NCBI RefSeq assembly: GCF_036711975.1 | Contig: NC_091975.1 | Span: 10,790,501-10,854,500, forward strand | Direction: 5' to 3' | DNA: 64,000 nucleotides | DNA from: Onthophagus taurus | Lineage: Eukaryota; Arthropoda; Insecta; Coleoptera; Scarabaeidae | Shown here: positions 51,912-64,000 of the stretch, piece after piece | How positions within the stretch are numbered: position 1 is the stretch's first letter | Layout: every line of letters starts with the position of its first letter | Notes under the pieces: model-generated | Told to the model about the DNA's origin: nothing | What the model saw: the letters and a program-made list of their open reading frames with translations, nothing else | Database searches by the model: none | Made by a program: the position numbers and the translations under genes

Positions 51912-54900
51912 ATGAAAGTACTCCTTTTGGTTTGCTGCTCTTTAGCGGCCGCCGGTTTCACCGAAGCCAGATTGTTCCGAAATCGAAGAAGTGCTAAAAA
52001 TGAATGTAAATTTAATTTTCTCTTTTCAAAACGTTATTCAATTTATATTAATTATTTTTTATTTTAGATCGAATGTGTGTTCCCGAAGAGATTTTTGATT
52101 ATTGCACCCAAATGGCGCAGCAAAAAACGAAAAGTACGGCGAAAATCGTTTGTATCTCTGCGAGGGATCGTTTTGAATGTATTGAGAAAATTAAGAGAAG
52201 AGAAGCCGATTTCTTAACGGTTGATCCTGAAGATATGTACATAGCGGCGAAAACTCCAGAACAAGATTTTGCCGTTTTCGAAGAGATTCGCACTAAAGAA
52301 GAACCTGAAGGTTAGCGATTTTTTTTGTTTTTGTTTGTGTATGAACGGGTTTTTAACAAGTTTATTTTTAATAATTCCTTTTTTTGTCTTCACCTCGTTC
52401 TTAGAAAAAACGTGCATGTTATATTAACAAAGTCATAAAATATTCAGTCTATATTTACATGTAACTCTCAGGAACAAGGTCGCCCGATTCATAAAGAGAA
52501 CTACAATCGTCTCTTTTGTAATACGTTTTATAGTTTTGTTATTGAAATTATTATTAAATTAATGGACGTTTAAATAAGAAAAACTTTTCTTTTAGCCGAG
52601 TTTCGTTACGAAGGAGTCGCAGTAATTCATAAAAATTTAAAACTTAACTCAATATCCGATTTGAAAGGATTAAAATCGTGTCATACCGGCGTTGGAAGAA
52701 ACGTCGGTTATAAAATACCAATTACTAAATTAAAAAATATGCAAATTATCGGCAAGTTGAACGAACCCGGTTTATCAGCCAGAGAAAACGAATTAAAGGC
52801 GTTATCTGAACTATTTTCGAAAGCTTGTATTGTTGGGAAATGGTCCCCCGACTCTGTTATCGACTCCAAATTAAGTATAAAACATATCTTTAACAACAAA
52901 ATGATTTTATTAATTCTTTTTTTATTTAGAAAAAAGATATAGTAATTTATGCCAACTTTGCGAACATCCTGAAAAATGCGATTATCCGGATAACTTCTCT
53001 GGTTATGAAGGTGCTTTAAGATGTTTAGCTCATAATAATGGAGATATTGCTTGGACTAAAGTTATTTTTGTTAAGAAATTCTTTGGGGTAAGTTTTTAAT
53101 ATTGTTGATATTAAAGTAACGAAGTTTTATCTGTGCTATTGTTTATTTTGAGTACATACAGGATATATGACTGCATACAAACTACGTTGGGATGACAAAT
53201 TGTATAAATCATGTTCAAACATAGCTTATACAGCATATTTTGATTTTAAGGTTTTTTAGCAAATTTCACCATGCTCTTTAATCCCAGCCAACGTTAATTC
53301 AAAAAAGCTCTAAATTGGCACGATTACACTTCAGATTTATCCCCATAATAGTATCCACTAAAAGAATTCATACAAACAACAAAACAAAAACAAAAAAGAA
53401 ATCAACATGTAACAAAATCGAAAACAAAATAGCAAAATAAATAACTAATTCTAGATATAACAACAAAAACAAAAAATAGTGTTCCTAATTAATAATACAA
53501 GCCAGATTGAACTCGAATTACACAGATATTCAATGGCAGATATTCAAACTTAATATACTCCTGCGGAAAGACCCCAACGAGGAATAAAACATATCACACA
53601 TCGAACAATGACGATTGTAAGAGTGCATCAATCGCAGTAAAGGTGAGTTGTAATGGCAATTGGTAGTAGAAGCGGGCAATCGGAAAAGACATTGATCTCG
53701 AGTGGGATAGCTAGGAATTAAGAGAGAAATGTGTCTCACAAGTTCTGGCGAGTCAACAAAACCGTTCATTAGTTTAAACAAAAATAGCAAATCCGTAGCA
53801 GCTCGACGGCCGCGCAGTGTACGCAAACCGAATACAGTGCATCTTTGCTCGTAGGAGCAATAAGGCAATGCGAATTTGTGAGCCAAATAACGCACAAATC
53901 TGACCTGTAAGGCCTCAATGCGGTCAATGTACAGGGTGGGCAAATTTGGGTGTTACTATAGGCTATCTCAGAAACTATAAGAGATACGAAAAAAGTAGGT
54001 GCCATGTCCCGGTCTCTTTTTCCGAGACTAATCCAATCCCGCAAAGACCAAACCTCTACCTTCTTTTGTTTTTAAGTTATAGCCAAAAAGTCAAATTTTC
54101 GCGATTTCAAAAAATGCTCATATTTCATTTATTTTTGAAATTGGAGAAATGGGGTTGATACGTTCTTAAGACACTTTTTTGAGTAGAATACACTGCCGTT
54201 AAAAGATTTTAAATATACTTGTTGGTTTTTGAGATACAACACAAAGTTGTATTTTTTTAAATACAAACTATACTTGATTATGATGTTACTGAAAAGAGGA
54301 TATTTTTAGCTTTCCAATGATGTATCGCATGCATGGTGTATGTGCGGAAAATAAGCGTTATTTTTCGATTCCAAAATAATAAAGGCTAATATTCAAAATT
54401 TTGATTATAGTAGGCGGGTTCGAACAGTAAATACTACCTAGTTGCTATAGTAACGTGTGTTTATTTGTCATCTAGTTAAAAAACTTAAGTCAGAAATTGT
54501 GATAGGTAGTCTTAGCATTTTCAGGTTTTTTTTAAAACTAATAACATTCAATTCGAAAATGGAATTCAGTAACTATGAAAAGTATGATATGTTGGAATGT
54601 TTTATTCACAATAATGACAACGCTGATGCTGCGTGTGAAACATATCTAAATCGCTACCCTGAACGGAAACAACCACATAAGTCAATTTTTAACCGCCTGA
54701 AAGAAAATTTAATCAACTATGGATGTTTTAAAAAATCAAGACCACAAAAGTATAAAATTCAAGGTGCTGAAAATGTCGCAATTGATGTAATTGGAGCCGT
54801 CATTGCAGATCCATCCATCTCCAGTCGACAAATTGAAGCGGATTCAGGAATTTCTAGACGCCGTGCTCTAACTGTTTTGAAAAACAATAAATTTAAGCCA

Positions 54901-57900: not shown

Positions 57901-60900
57901 ACGGTGTAATAAAAACTTCAACCTTCCATTTAAAATAGCGATGTTATGGTCTACTTCCGGTAGACAAGTGGCGGCCATCTTGAAAATATTTTAGATCGAA
58001 AGTTCCGAATGAACAACCAATGATACCAAAATTTCAAATCTCTACGAATAGTGGAACCTGAAAAAATTCTAACGAACCATTTACGTGAGACACCTGTATA
58101 AGTATACAGGGTGTTCCGGTGACTCGGGGCATAAAATTAACCTCATATACTAGAGCAAAAATGATGACGATTCGTGAAAAAAAATTATTATAAAAGTCTT
58201 CAAATGGCTAAGATATGGGCCATTAAAGTTCAGAAATTTTAACACATTTTTCTAAATATTTTCAATACCATTTTCGCGTATAACTCGAAAACGGTCAATG
58301 TTATCAAAATTTTCAAAGAGTGATTAAAGTCTCTAAAATAAATTTTCTATTAAAAAGTACAAAAATAAATGTAGGGTTACGAGCGAACAAAAAAGTTCTG
58401 AGCAAACAAATTTTAGGGACAGCCTGTATAGCATGGTTGCCGCCGCCCGATCAAAGTCAAAATTGGTTCAATGATTTTGCTTGATATTTGTTTACCCTAT
58501 ACCAAATTTCAACGCTCTACCATAAATGGTATTGAAAATATTTAGAAAAATGTGTTAAAACTTCTGAACTTTGATGGCCCATATCTTGACCATTTGAAGA
58601 CTTTTATAGCTCTAGTATATGAGGTTAATTTTATGCCCCGAGTCACCGGAACACCCTGTATAAGGGTAAATGAAACGTTGCATGCTATGTAGGGAAGGAT
58701 CATAAGTTATGATACCGATCTGGTAGAAGCAATTCTACAAGATAAATTCACTACCAATATTAAGTTGGGGTAGATATTAAATAGAGATAGGAAAAGAGAA
58801 TCTCTATCGCAAATTATATGAGAATGTTTGATTTGAGAAAGCTAGGAGCTTAAGAAAAAAAGGGAAATGTGAAATTGGCATTGATGGCTCAACATACTGG
58901 ATTTAACTTAAACTGGTCGTCTTACAATATGTAGTCTGATTTAGAAAATACGTCGAGTATAGACAATCAAAGTTGTCAATGACAAAAATTAAAATTCTTG
59001 ATCCGATTTGGACCTACTATGCTTTGTTGGATTGCCAAAAATTTAATGGCGGCTTACTTTGATCAGTGTAAGCCCTTTAGCCTCCTTACCTTCCAAAATC
59101 AATTTTTTTTAAATTTTTTGAAGCAGTTTAAATTTGGCAATGGAAAAAATAGTTAAACTTTTTTGTAGTTGAAATCACGTCCGCTGTTAATGACTCACAA
59201 TCTTCAGCGTCTCTTTACATAGATGCTCTTTCTATATGATTATTTCTACGCGCATCCATTTAATAGTCGTCCTATAAGTATAGGCTGTGGTGGTACACGA
59301 ATCACATTAATGATTTTATTAGTATTAATATTCATTTTTGTTTTCTTTTCACCTGGGTAAATTTTGCACTTAAAGGTGAAATGTGTTTATTATCACTCTA
59401 CCGGTTTCGCTCCTTTCGGAGCATCTTCGGGAGTTCCTAAAGTTATTAATTTTACAACACTTTCTATTATTATATAATTTTACATTTTAACTTACGTCAA
59501 TTTTTTGAACAACTAAACATGTATGTGATACTTTATTGAATTAATTCACTATTAAAATGTTAATCTCATCACTTTTTATTATATTTTAGGTTATGTTGAA
59601 ACTGTCAATGGTATATTTTCTATTTTAATGTTGGTAATCTGTCAAATGTGATTGCCGTGTATTGAATTTAAACTTTCTTGTTTTGAATAGGTTGATTTTC
59701 AACAGGTTGAAATGAGGTATTACAACATAAACATATTAACTCCCTACATCAAACACACTGAAAATTATAATGGTACAGAGAGAGCAGCTATTTTTAGAGT
59801 TCGGGAGGTTTTCGTGGAGGTGTGTATGGTTGTTTGAGATAGGTTATATAGTGGTCTTCTTGTAGGTATAATTTGTTCGTTTAGGCATGTTACATCAGGG
59901 CAGTTGTTGAGGAATTTATTAATTTCATAGTTTTCCATTATTTCTAAATAGTAACTTTTATTGATATGATGAAGGATTCTGGAATTTTTATCTTCGTTAA
60001 ATTCATGTTTTGAGTTAAATATTAAGTGATTTCCGAAGTTGGAGTTATTTTTGTGTTTATGTTCTCTTATTCTTTTTCTAAGGCTTCTGCCTGTTTCTCC
60101 AATGTACGCTGCTTTACAAGTGTCGCACTCTAGTATGTACACACCATTGTCGTCCAGTTTATTTATTTTGTCCTTATTGTTTATAAGCATTCTTTCTAAT
60201 GTTTTATTTGGTTTGAAATTAAGATTTATATTATATTGTTTTAAACTCTGTTTTATTTTATTGGATATGTTGCCTTGGAATGTTATAGCTCTATAATAAA
60301 TACTTTGATCTTCATTGTGTTGATTCTTTAGAGTGGTACAATTAATCATTTTTTGTTTTTTCTGTTGTTTGTTTATAATATTATTTATTATGTAAGTTGG
60401 GAAGTTATTATTTTTCGCAACTTGGTAGATTGTATTTATTTCGGTGGTAAGGTTTTCTGTGTTCATTTTTGAATTGTATGCTCTATGTATGTGTGATCTA
60501 AAAGCAGCTAGTTTATGTGCGTTACAGTGATATGCATCTGTCTGTGTTGGTTTTCTGTATGTGTTAAATATAAAACCGTTATCCTGTGTTCTTTTTATGT
60601 TTATGTCTAGGTAGTTTATTTCGTTATTTTTCTCTTGTTCTATCGTAAATTGTATCTTGCTGTGTATTGAGTTAATATATTTATGAATCTTGTTTATAGT
60701 ATTGTTGTCTTTAGTATTAACAATGACTAGTATGTCATCTACATACCTTTTCCAAAATTTTATGTTTTCAAAATATGGATTATTACCTTTATTAATTATA
60801 AGTTTAGTTTCCATCTCATTTAGAAATATGTCAGAGATCAAACTGCTCAAAGGAGACCCCATTGGTAAACCCTCTTCGTATGAATATATATTATTATTGA

Positions 60901-63900
60901 ATTGTTGTAAACTGATCTCGAATAGGTTGAAAATGTTATTACGATCATTTAGGTCTGTTATGCTATGTGATAGAATGTCTTTAATAATGTTCAATGTTTG
61001 TCTGGTGGGGATGTTGGTATACAGGTTGACGATGTCGAAGGATAGAATAGTAAAATCTTTTGGCAGTGACATTATGCTCAGTTCTGTTATTATTATTTAT
61101 TTATCTATTCCGAATAGTGTGTGTTGGTTGGAAGTTAATATTTGTTTTGAAAATGTCTATTAGAAATTTTGATATTTTGTAAGTACTTGAGTCGATGCTG
61201 GTTATTATTGGTCTTATGGGCATGTTCTGTTTATGCAGCTTAGGCAATGCATACAATCTAGGTATTTTCGGGTTCATTGGGATGATTGATCTTACATTTC
61301 TGCCATATTTCGTTAAAGTAGTTTTACTATTGTTTATTATTTTCTTGACTTTTTCATGGAAGAAGTTAGTAGGATTTTTTAGGGTTTTTATGAAATTGTT
61401 ATCGTTAAGGAATTTTTCGGTTTTTTTATATAATTTATCTTATCCAAAATGACTAAACCTGCACTTTTATCGCCCTTAGTAAAGATTAAATCATTTTTTT
61501 CTATTTTCTCTTTGATGGTTTTCAATGTCTTTTCTTCATTTTTCCTTTTCTTTTCTGTTTTTTCGTTGTTCTTTTTCGTCCTTTTTGTTATTTTAGTTTC
61601 TTCTTTCATTAGTATTTGTTGTAAGGTTTTGTGTATTTCTTCTTCTTTTGGCAGTCCTCTCGTAATTGCTTCTAGTTCTAATGCTGTTTTTCTGAGGTTG
61701 GTTGTTTTATATATGGAATATTTCAGTCCTTTTTCTAGTAAATTCATTTCGTTTTGATTAAAAGGCGTCTTTGACATATTTGTAACTCTTTTATGAAATT
61801 TATGTGTTGTTAAATTCTCTCTTGTTGATGTCGTATTCCTATTCTTCTCCATTCTTTGTTCTTCTCGAAGTTGTTTCAATTTTTTGTCTTTCTTTTCCCA
61901 TTCTCGGAACAACTTCTCCTTCTGTGTTTGTTCCATGTTTACCATTATTTCTTCTATTTCTTCGAAGTGTAAAGTGATAGTTAATTCTTGGTATTTATAG
62001 TATAGTTGGATGTTGATGTCGTTAATTATAGAATAATGTTTTTTTACTTCTGTTTTTATATCTTTTGTCATGATTTTCTGAATCAAATCTGTTTTTAGAT
62101 GTTTTGGAAATTTATGTCTAGCAAATTTTGGTTTCAGTTCTTCTTCTAAACATGTTCGTAGGAATAGTATGTGTTGGAGTTGTTGTTTTAATTTTAGTTT
62201 AGTTCTTCGGTACTCTATGATGTTGTTGGTCGTACTAACCATTGTATTAATATTCATTTTTGGTTTCTTTTCACCTGGGTAATACAATTAAACAAATTTT
62301 GCACTTAAAGGTGAAATGTGTTTATTATCACTCTACCGGTTTCGCTCCTTTCGGAGCATCTTCAGGAGTTCCTAAAGTTATTAATTTTACAACATTTTCC
62401 ATTATTATATAATTTTACATTTTAACTTACATCAATTTTTTGAACAACTAAACATGTATGTGATACTTTATTGAATTAATTCACTATTAAAATGTTAATC
62501 TCATCACTTTTTATTATATTTTAGGTTATGTGTTTTGCAGTCCAAAATGTAGGGAATAAATTCGGCACTTAGACATAACTTGATAACCAATATTAGTCTT
62601 TGTCAAAAGCCGTAATTTTTAAGATGTGATATATTCAAATTTATTATTCAGAACTATTTTTTGTGACTTTGTTATTCTATTACAAAAAAAATAGTTTAGT
62701 ATTGTTTATAAAAAATTACACTAAAGAAAAAATTTTATATTCAAACAAAATTTTGTTTTAGCTTCCTGTAGGGAACTCCCCAGCAGTTCCAACAAACGAA
62801 CACCCCGAAGATTACGCTTATTTATGTCCCGATGGTACCAGAGTTCCAATTGATAAAACTCCTTGCAGATGGGCAGCAAGACCATGGCAAGGATACATGG
62901 GAAACGCAGATGTTGTAAAAACCGTTGAAGAACTTCGAAGAAAAATCGAAAATTTAGACACTGAGGGTCATAAAGCGCACGCCGGTTGGTTAGAAAAAGT
63001 TTTAGAAATTTCAGATAAAAACGTTGCAAAACCCAACAAAGTCATTACACCCGGTGATTATTTAGACAAAGGAAATTACACCGATGTTGTTGAAAGAGAT
63101 TACGGCCCACCCTATAAAACCGCAAGATTTTGCGTAACAAACGACGATGAATTAGCAAAGTGCCAAGCGTTAACTGAATCGGCGTTTACAAGAAATATTC
63201 GCCCAAGATTTGATTGTGTCCAAGAAAGATCGATTGAGGGTTGCATGAAGGCTATAAGAGATGGGGCGGCTGATATTATAACTTTAGATGCGGGATTAGC
63301 GAATCGAGCTGAAAAAGAATTCAATTTAAGACCGATTGTTTCGGAGACTTATGGAAAATCTGGGGGGATTTATTACACGGTGGCTGTTGTTAAAAAAAAT
63401 TCGCTTTATAAATCGTTCGCCGATTTAAAAGGAGCTAAATCGTGTCATACTGGGTATGCAAGAACCGCGGGGTACAACGCTCCTTTATACACTTTAATTA
63501 AACTTGATTTGATTAAGAAAACTTCGTGTCCTTATCCCAAAGCTTTGGCGGACTATTTTTCGGGAAGTTGTCTCCCGGGGGCTAAAAACCCATCTCTTAA
63601 ATTAAACGGAGAAATTGCTGATAAATTATGTAGCTTATGCATAGGAAATAATGGAGATAAGAGTACAAAATGCAATTTTGATCAATCTGAAAGTTATTCC
63701 GGGTATTCCGGGGCTTTTAGATGTCTCGTTGAGGGCGATGGGGATGTTGCTTTTGTGAAGCACGTCACTGTACCGGGAAATACCGATGGAAAGAATAAAG
63801 AAGATTGGGCCATTAATTTGAAATCATCAGATTATGAGTTGTTGTGTCCTAACGGGGGAAGAGCGCCTATTGGGGATTATGAAAAATGTTTCTTATCCCA

Positions 63901-64000
63901 AGCACCACCTCATATGGTCGTTACAAGCAATACAAAGAGTCCTGGGGATATTGAGGAGCTCCAAAACGTTTTGGTCGATCTTGGGGAACAATACACTGAG
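51912..64000 (+). CDS. Tsf1: Transferrin 1, 3' end beyond the window
   Basis: Exons 51912-52005, 52068-52310, 52596-52874, 52930-53087 and 62762 to the window end have coherent phases and 671 codons so far. A signal peptide (MKVLLLVCCSLAAAGFTEA) is followed by MCVPEEIFDYC, ADFLTVDPEDMYIAAK, SCHTGVGRNVGYKIP, ACIVGKWSPD, LCQLCEHPEKCDYP and WAARPWQGYMG. After the linker comes the second lobe with RFCVTNDDELAKCQA, DLKGAKSCHTGYARTAGY and DGDVAFVKHVTVPG. The protein is a secreted haemolymph iron carrier that also withholds iron from microbes. The Asp in VDPED fits the N-lobe iron ligand. All transposons here lie in the 9.67-kb fourth intron, and no coding damage was seen. Confidence 0.96.
53088..53454. 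other. Start of transferrin intron 4
   Basis: The donor GGG|GTAAGTTTTT is at 53088. The rest is AT-rich without recognisable content, up to the A-rich tail region of the minus-strand retrotransposon (AAAACAAAAACAAAAAAG near 53385). Confidence 0.5.
53932..55865 (+). mobile_element. TA-flanked DNA transposon with ~490-bp inverted repeats, nested in the LINE
   Basis: The ends are CAGGGTGGGCAAATTTGGGT and its inverse, flanked by TA (53930-53931 and 55866-55867). The arms stay similar for ~490 bp (left to ~54425, right from ~55378), very long for a 1934-bp element. The middle holds one ORF with a DNA-binding domain but no catalytic domain. The TA duplication and CAGGG end suggest the Tc1/mariner superclass. 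The host LINE gives the empty-site sequence. Confidence 0.9.
54559..54996 (+). CDS. Helix-turn-helix DNA-binding protein of the nested transposon
   Basis: The start MEFSNYEKYDMLECFIHN is chosen over an upstream frame-open ATG at 54457 because similarity begins here. The 145-residue product has DAACETYLNRYPERKQPHKS then IFNRLKENLINYGCFKK, the DUF4817-type helix-turn-helix often found at the N-terminus of insect mariner-like transposases. A second helical region (SSRQIEADSGISRRRALTVL) resembles the second HTH. It stops before any DDE catalytic motif. It could be a truncated transposase, or a stand-alone DNA-binding protein able to act on the long inverted repeats. Confidence 0.7.
   Translation: MEFSNYEKYDMLECFIHNNDNADAACETYLNRYPERKQPHKSIFNRLKENLINYGCFKKSRPQKYKIQGAENVAIDVIGAVIADPSISSRQIEADSGISRRRALTVLKNNKFKPYLIRKRQQLVEGDFQRGAIYVSKITGDNLKI
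57416..57845. repeat. Inverted-repeat element of ~430 bp
   Basis: The left arm (AATAGATTGTCATATATTGT, then AGTATCTTATAC and GGTCAAAAATT) is inverted on the right (AATTTTTGACC, then GTATAAGATACTTCG and AATGACAATCTATTTG). The arms are ~60 bp with ~15% mismatch. The left arm overlaps the 5' edge of LINE-like coding sequence, so either a MITE captured it or the right arm is an inverted LINE piece. Confidence 0.6.
58107..58658. mobile_element. TA-flanked MITE in transferrin intron 4
   Basis: The ends CAGGGTGTTCCGGTGACTCG and its inverse are flanked by TA (58105-58106 and 58659-58660). Inverted similarity runs ~150 bp inward (ATGCCCCGAGTCACC, ATATCTTGACCATTTGAAG, TTTAGAAAAATGTG). At 552 bp and with no coding frame it is non-autonomous, of Tc1/mariner type by its target site. 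Confidence 0.88.
58659..59322. other. Intron sequence, nothing recognised
   Basis: Between the MITE and the Penelope-like element. No repeat or coding frame was seen. Confidence 0.4.
59323..59596 (-). repeat. Penelope pseudo-LTR, element 3' copy
   Basis: It lies downstream of the coding region in the element's sense. It matches 62245-62531 from TATTAATATTCATTTTTG through ATTTTAGGTTATGT, but lacks the AATACAATTAAAC stretch present in the other copy. Confidence 0.9.
59395..59434 (-). ncRNA. Hammerhead-like motif with core substitution
   Basis: It has the same layout as the copy at 62330-62369, but the core reads CCGAAGA, replacing the conserved U4 with C. Stems I, II and III are unchanged. 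U4 is part of the catalytic uridine turn, so this copy is expected to be inactive. Confidence 0.6.
59765..61072 (-). pseudogene. Penelope reverse transcriptase core and GIY-YIG endonuclease
   Basis: The open frame of 435 codons has RT motif A (ILSFDIVNLYTNIP), motif B (GLPMGSPLSSLISDIFLNE) and motif C (FWKRYVDDILVIV, catalytic YVDD). Motif D/E-like (NYLDINIKR) and the family's YRKPTQTDAYHC-like stretch follow. The C-terminal GIY-YIG domain reads GVYILECDTCKAAYIGETG then SLRKRIREHK. The part itself is intact, but it lacks the fingers region, which lies in other frames upstream. Confidence 0.93.
61073..62287 (-). pseudogene. Penelope ORF, N-terminal and fingers region
   Basis: The frame 62287-61388 encodes a Lys/Glu-rich coiled N-terminus (KEKLFREWEKKDKKLKQLRE) and reaches DLIFTKGDKSAGLVILDK, the conserved start of the Penelope RT domain. 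A base is missing in an A-run near 61427. The next frame then gives FFHEKVKKIINNSK and PRLYALPKLHKQNMPIRPI, the known P-K-x-HK-x-x-x-x-x-RPI motif. Stops and another shift lie at 61080-61110, before the core ORF. It is inactive unless these are assembly errors. Confidence 0.85.
62245..62531 (-). repeat. Penelope pseudo-LTR, element 5' copy
   Basis: It lies upstream of the coding region in the element's sense and overlaps the first codons of the N-terminal ORF (62287). It carries the hammerhead-like fold with a consensus core. Confidence 0.9.
62330..62369 (-). ncRNA. Hammerhead ribozyme candidate, consensus core
   Basis: The minus strand reads, in order: ACUC (stem I), CUGAAGA (core), U, GCUCC-GAAA-GGAGC (stem II with tetraloop), GAA, ACCGGU (A15.1 to U16.1, a self-complementary stem III), A (position 17, cleavage site), GAGU (stem I partner). 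This fits a minimal type I hammerhead. Such minimal motifs with a tiny stem III are known in Penelope-like elements, where they are thought to act as dimers. The extra U between core and stem II is a departure from the usual G-C pair. Activity is inference. Confidence 0.65.

Follow-up and report, generated by a model that had tools for sequence, protein, structure and literature searches.

A 64,000-nucleotide stretch of the Onthophagus taurus genome (NC_091975.1, positions 10,790,501 to 10,854,500), here called ‘the window’, carries on its minus strand, at 62330-62369, a minimal type I hammerhead ribozyme motif. It lies in the 5' pseudo-LTR of a Penelope-like element and, with a probability of roughly 85% as judged from sequence and from folding models, would be of a dimer type, that is, one in which two copies cut each other after residue H17. 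Dimer-cutting hammerheads from Penelope-like elements have already been published, and the window ribozyme therefore is of a known kind. Minimal type I hammerheads were reported from these elements in 2014 (Cervera & de la Pena, as cited in passages of PMC6155905, PMC7761336, PMC6466107, and PMC8490949), a later paper states in its title that they ‘cleave RNA as dimers’ (Lunse, Weinberg & Breaker 2017), and a passage from a 2020 review describes their role as a mystery (PMC7761336). As compared by way of such citing passages and titles, the window motif is not different in kind. What is added here is one genome's copies, their covariation, alternative palindromes, and the depletion of G at H17.

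Read from 62369 to 62330, the motif consists in succession of ACUC, CUGAAGA, U, GCUCC, GAAA, GGAGC, GAA, ACCGGU, A, and GAGU. The first and last of these make up a stem I of 4 bp, with CUGAAGA an instance of the CUGANGA core. One extra U (62358; position 10, between A9 and G10.1) then precedes a 5-bp stem II with its GAAA loop. Following GAA is the self-complementary ACCGGU (62335-62340) and then an A, at 62334, in the cleavage position (H17 = A). The core sequence CUGANGA is present, that is, as are GAA and a non-G residue 17. Cleavage is predicted, based on hammerhead anatomy, 3' of A17 and before GAGU (62333-62334). An earlier note on this DNA had described all parts of a minimal type I hammerhead on the element's sense strand, including A at the expected cleavage position, and the sequence is as described. 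If the motif is defined strictly, as core plus palindromic stem III plus a stem I of at least 4 bp, then it occurs once in the window versus not at all in 200 whole-window dinucleotide shuffles. The genome has 47 exact instances of a 27-base segment extending from stem II through stem I, with both window copies included.

The second of those window copies, in the 3' pseudo-LTR (59395-59434, minus strand), is the same as the 5' copy except for a single core base, U4 having become C at 59429. The resulting CCGAAGA is not a hammerhead core, with the cut site nevertheless intact. According to the mutational literature a U4C change is inactivating, and the 3' copy's own core probably is dead as a consequence. 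Genome-wide, U4C is seen at 24 places, the window 3' copy among them (3 in the control), and in 1 of 18 examined copies of the exact 27-base segment. The earlier note thus was right to place a second copy in the other pseudo-LTR but missed its core mutation, due to which the two window copies are not equivalent.

The two pseudo-LTRs (5', 62244-62531, in element sense; 3', 59322-59596; both minus strand) were delimited by direct repeats (D1 and D3 for the 5' one) and by alignment. These repeats, each with one hammerhead copy, are 98% identical over 238 bp, with the 3' one displaying a 13-bp deletion relative to the 5' one and extending over the initial 14 nt of the ORF. The element's ORF, located between them and on the strand of the hammerheads, is split over three frames: an N-terminal piece (61388-62287), with its first ATG at 62257 and its frame broken downstream; a second piece (61101-61439); and a C-terminal piece (59765-61096), which matches reverse transcriptase (RVT_1, E 5.8e-11). 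That first ATG is 76 nt 3' of the predicted cut. By eye the C-terminal piece also contains what I take to be a GIY-YIG-like motif; a Pfam search up to E 1 recovered no GIY-YIG domain. In the same genome the element has relatives with open frames of 823-865 aa, 834 and 839 aa among them, unlike the window element's own, broken ORF. RVT_1 matches both in the window and in one such relative (L040), and a long reverse transcriptase ORF is found among these relatives; a search of the PDB returned no solved relative of the L040 ORF. Pseudo-LTRs which include the ORF start, an optional tail, and head-to-head inverted copies are all present, a layout which matches that described for Penelope-like elements of a rotifer (PMC3846280).

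Flanking the element, on the opposite strand, are exons of a transferrin gene: downstream of the element-bearing intron at 62762-64000 (plus strand; PF00405, E 2.6e-74) and upstream within 52604-53063 (plus strand; matches at 52604-52837 and 52932-53063 in a PF00405 search of the window's own genome). The element therefore is located inside an intron, antisense to the gene, and as such adds no ribozyme to the transferrin transcript. The earlier note's placement of the ribozyme in a Penelope-like element, and of that element in a transferrin intron, is borne out by these exons, by the same-strand RVT_1 match, and by the direct pseudo-LTR repeats. Among PDB entries, the downstream exon best matches melanotransferrin (6xr0, E 2.4e-124), such that the gene presumably may be of the insect transferrin-2 type. 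Elsewhere in the window, at 58108-58660, there are by eye inverted stretches, with the left end CAGGGTGTTCCGGTGACTCGGGGCATAAAATTAACC recurring reverse-complemented at the right end; this resembles a further inverted-repeat element, located next to the Penelope copy.

The window copy is a relic, its ORF being broken. A stronger version of this statement would be that the insertion has decayed, that no cleavable form of its ribozyme is ever produced, and that nothing happens at this locus, which I consider to be somewhat probable. The spread of the ORF over three frames, the U4C core of the 3' copy, and the antisense orientation relative to transferrin all point that way. The 5' copy, however, is intact, and the near identity of the pseudo-LTRs implies an insertion which is not very old. 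This is, in any case, a perspective on the fate of one copy rather than on the identity of the motif.

Further copies of the motif were sought in the window's own genome (290.8 Mb, 33 contigs) using a core pattern, i.e., CTGANGA, 8-34 bases, GAAACCGGT, and a non-G base, with the reversed pattern serving as control. There are 1,827 matches versus 2 in the control, counts which, as the pattern fixes the core, are no measure of core conservation. From 99 sequences, window included, came 95 distinct copies, or 94 with a nested false start in L095 dropped, and these 94 form 52 groups by flanking sequence. That number overcounts families, with L003, for example, separated from the window's family despite having the same ribozyme. 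For alignment there were 85 distinct ribozyme sequences, their core fixed by the pattern but their stems left free, and copies within one family are not independent.

Covariation in other genomic copies, the lack of which would have counted as refuting in the earlier note, is strong. Over stems I and II of the 85 copies, 85.0% of cells are paired versus 54.4% upon shuffling, 280 cells are changed on both sides versus 102, and the covariation score is 0.745 versus 0.231, with 0 of 500 shuffles as high in each of these three cases. Slid controls of the 85 copies are 31-45% paired, or 28-46% versus 84-85% when the alignments with and without the window's family are taken together, and the covariation result is unchanged without that family. 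Two other, cruder measures on the same 85 copies display no excess over shuffles: pairs with both-side change (9 versus 9.0 in shuffles) and further pair types (39 versus 36.5, with 67 of 500 shuffles as high). As three of five measures stand above all 500 shuffles, stems I and II are strongly supported by this comparison of sequences.

A covariance model, R2, was built from 78 sequences, the six of the window's family and one with a long loop having been removed from the 85. Although E-values of such models are rough, R2 matches the 5' copy with 45.0 bits (E 2e-10) and the 3' copy with 35.2 bits (E 1.4e-7), whereas nothing else in the window scores above 14.0 bits. Rfam, by contrast, gives no matches in the window at gathering thresholds and, up to E 10, none of its hammerhead families does better than HH9, with 15.1 bits (E 7; threshold 52). 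This is probably because Rfam models expect a longer stem III. The covariance-model check suggested by the earlier note consequently comes out both ways, with Rfam falling short of its gathering threshold but a model from other families of the same genome matching well. The motif, that is, is not a canonical, Rfam-type type I hammerhead, the gathering score not being reached and an intramolecular stem III being absent.

Twenty reverse transcriptase-bearing loci were also considered, chosen from 98 listed reverse transcriptase matches for their diversity and long frames and not for ribozymes. Sixteen have at least one model match at E < 0.01, though six of those sixteen (L039, L041, L044-L047) had contributed sequences to the model, while L042, L049, L057, and L058 have no match at that threshold; some of these no-match stretches may stop short of the pseudo-LTR. 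Within the window's family, conservation of the core does not clearly exceed that of its flanks (2/192 versus 100/2,771 compared sites), in a sample of 12 copies, query included, which is small and partly chosen by motif. In IMG/VR, the pattern scan yielded 6 places, about chance level by a rough estimate, and no relative of the element's reverse transcriptase was found. A search for the telomere repeat TCAGG gave no match.

As its ACCGGU lacks a loop, a single copy is unable to form stem III. The minimum fold of one copy (-13.2 kcal/mol) has core bases paired and contains no hammerhead. With two intact 5' copies, RNAcofold instead predicts, unconstrained, a complete double hammerhead at -30.3 kcal/mol, with stem III of 6 bp between the two ACCGGU halves and with stem I also intermolecular. 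The dimeric active form that the earlier note derived from the self-complementary stem III is in this manner predicted as well by folding. Given instead the 5' copy along with the U4C 3' copy, another fold is preferred over the double hammerhead. Across copies, the unconstrained dimer minimum contains the full ACCGGU stem in 44 of 85 distinct copies, but equals the double hammerhead in only 21 of the 85 and in 10 of 52 group representatives. When stem I strands were exchanged between copies as a control, the double hammerhead was seen in 6 of 255. The energy model is blind to the core, so dimer folding is supportive only.

By an established rule, hammerheads cannot cut after G. With the rest of the pattern the same, G at position 17 is found 45 times (1 in the control) versus the 1,827 non-G matches, i.e., 2.4%, where the GC content of the window is 31%. 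Residue 17 in the 95 copies is A in 69, U in 22, and C in 4. Six of the 45 G17 motifs are clustered within 4 kb on one contig (C1, 25847809-25851435). They are spaced by 635-637 bp four times and by 1,051 bp once, and by its sequence this array should not self-cleave. Relaxing the stem III segment to ACNNGT gives 4,170 matches (control 75). The first 100 of these as listed, which all come from the beginning of contig C1, divide by their middle bases into 51 with CG, 19 with TA, and 11 with AT, such that 81 are palindromic, with 19 non-palindromic. The palindromes found, ACCGGU, ACUAGU, ACAUGU, and AUCGAU (the last in the reverse transcriptase-bearing loci L052 and L053), are all self-complementary. 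Stem III sequence varies, that is, while its self-complementarity mostly stays, just as expected if this stem forms between two copies. Depletion of G at H17 along with retention of self-complementarity is, at the sequence level, what a cleaving, dimer-forming ribozyme would predict.

A different perspective is that hairpin and palindrome are kept as a structured binding site for the element's protein, serving in recognition or priming, with catalysis incidental. Consistent with this are observations on PAc, the Poseidon element of Anolis carolinensis, ribozyme mutants of which insert normally in vitro and the ribozyme of which cuts only with protein (PMC11167929). A binding site, however, needs no non-G residue at 17, and yet G is present there in just 45 of 1,872 cases. 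Stem sequences also turn over while the catalytic core stays, though with the core fixed by the search pattern. Use solely as a binding site consequently seems unlikely.

How ribozyme copies are arranged relative to each other was surveyed for the 47 exact 27-base places plus the first 100 core-pattern matches listed. All 17 cases of opposite-strand neighbours within 1 kb are head-to-head, with two further neighbours on the same strand, and within 6 kb there are two convergent pairs, both of them between different families. Of 14 pairs in L007-L102, 11 have common outer arms ending 79-94 nt past the start of the ribozyme, and a longer tail continues from one side of the head-to-head pair in L099-L102. 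Head-to-head pseudo-LTRs are described for a rotifer as well (PMC3846280), and reverse transcription begun on both sides of a break would fit such pairs. A different arrangement is seen in L103 (995-3803; contig C6, about 1655494-1658302), which consists of six tandem 468-bp units, 99% alike, all of them containing a hammerhead that has C10 and C17, and with an inverted copy preceding the array. This looks like a retrozyme-type array. In one flank cluster (CL1; L009, L029, L030, L076, L077, and others), flanks are similar but stem-loops II are wholly different, most of them self-complementary, stem II in that cluster seemingly turning over more rapidly than the sequence around it.

The extra U, which was new to the author of the earlier note, is not peculiar to the window copy. 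Of the 1,827 matches about 1,695 have it (that is, all but some 132 which lack U after A9, these including a few nested or long-spacer matches). In 90 of 95 copies the extra residue is followed by G, with C or U immediately before GAA, which makes the U an insert located outside of stem II. Nor is an extra residue at this position unprecedented, the plus-strand hammerhead of chrysanthemum chlorotic mottle viroid possessing an extra A at position 10, between A9 and G10.1, where the window has U; that ribozyme also has loop-loop contacts, which the minimal ribozyme of the window does not (PMC3705267). According to the same paper, citing De la Pena & Flores 2001, changing the viroid's A10 to U raises trans-cleavage 3- to 4-fold, whereas changes to C or G are harmful. 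By analogy, the copies here which have C at position 10, giving ACG (108 genome-wide), sit uneasily with that harmful viroid C10 change.

With this U, A9-U10-G10.1 reads as AUG. In the window this AUG opens, by eye, an 8-codon frame (62333-62359, minus strand), the stop of which, UAG, spans the cleavage site, and the identical 8-residue frame is present in relatives L039 and L040. PAc shares with the window element a hammerhead at the junction of pseudo-LTR and ORF as well as an AUG at the start of stem II; in PAc, however, that AUG starts the main ORF (PMC11167929). An Anolis-like start of the main ORF was rejected for the loci examined, their frames being short. That the U is kept for translation, with this AUG opening a short upstream frame or, as in Anolis, the main one, would be in keeping with the U's prevalence, but is quite improbable given a median frame of 7 codons and a maximum of 65 among group representatives with AUG (45 of 52), frames ending within 20 codons in 31 of 31 model matches of the reverse transcriptase-bearing loci, the C10 copies, among them L052 and L053 with their open frames of 865 and 838 aa, and the effect on cleavage rate published for U10 in the viroid. 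A literature search found no paper which links Penelope-like hammerheads with upstream open reading frames.

Returning to dimeric cleavage as the preferred reading, two ACCGGU palindromes would pair to form the 6-bp stem III, stem I would form between the copies, and each copy's core would be placed to cut the other copy 3' of H17. Partner copies might be the two pseudo-LTRs of one transcript, tandem elements, or two RNAs. Cutting would presumably take place just ahead of the ORF and reduce tandem transcripts to single units, and the element's protein may assist. In a dimer, one core faces the other's cut site, from which one-sided cutting is predicted at the window locus: The intact 5' core is able to attack the site of the 3' copy (59399/59398), with no cutting of the 5' site expected in return from the U4C core. 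Counting against this reading are the need of PAc for protein, the normal insertion of its mutants, and the failure to find RNA ends at its cut site (PMC11167929).

Hammerheads of newt satellite DNA and of metazoan retrozymes are of type I, as in the window, and those of amphibians have a weak stem III and perform better as dimers, a further likeness. They differ in belonging to short, non-autonomous tandem repeats and in mostly having canonical loops, versus the window's location in an element with a reverse transcriptase ORF (PMC6155905 and PMC7229834). For Penelope-like element hammerheads in a beetle, a literature search found no paper.

The value of these observations is comparative evidence, a corrected second copy, and a testable prediction. 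The beetle's genome supplies natural variants for tests of function, i.e., U10 versus C10, A17, U17, and C17, and four palindromes, while the window pair, in direct orientation and with only one of its two cores unmutated, lends itself to asking which partner in a dimer does the cutting. A tentative and rather doubtful extension is that an obligatory dimer serves as a ‘sensor’ of tandem or full-length RNA, able to cut solely where two pseudo-LTRs come together, with stem I, which is family-specific and forms between copies (stem III being common to most), acting as a ‘kin code’ for processing of an element's own transcripts. If true, then each of many families within one genome would be processing only its own transcripts. 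Independent of that possibility, 1,827 matches in many families, stems that covary, palindromes that stand in for one another, and a shortage of G at the cut position are together good evidence that cleavage itself is selected.
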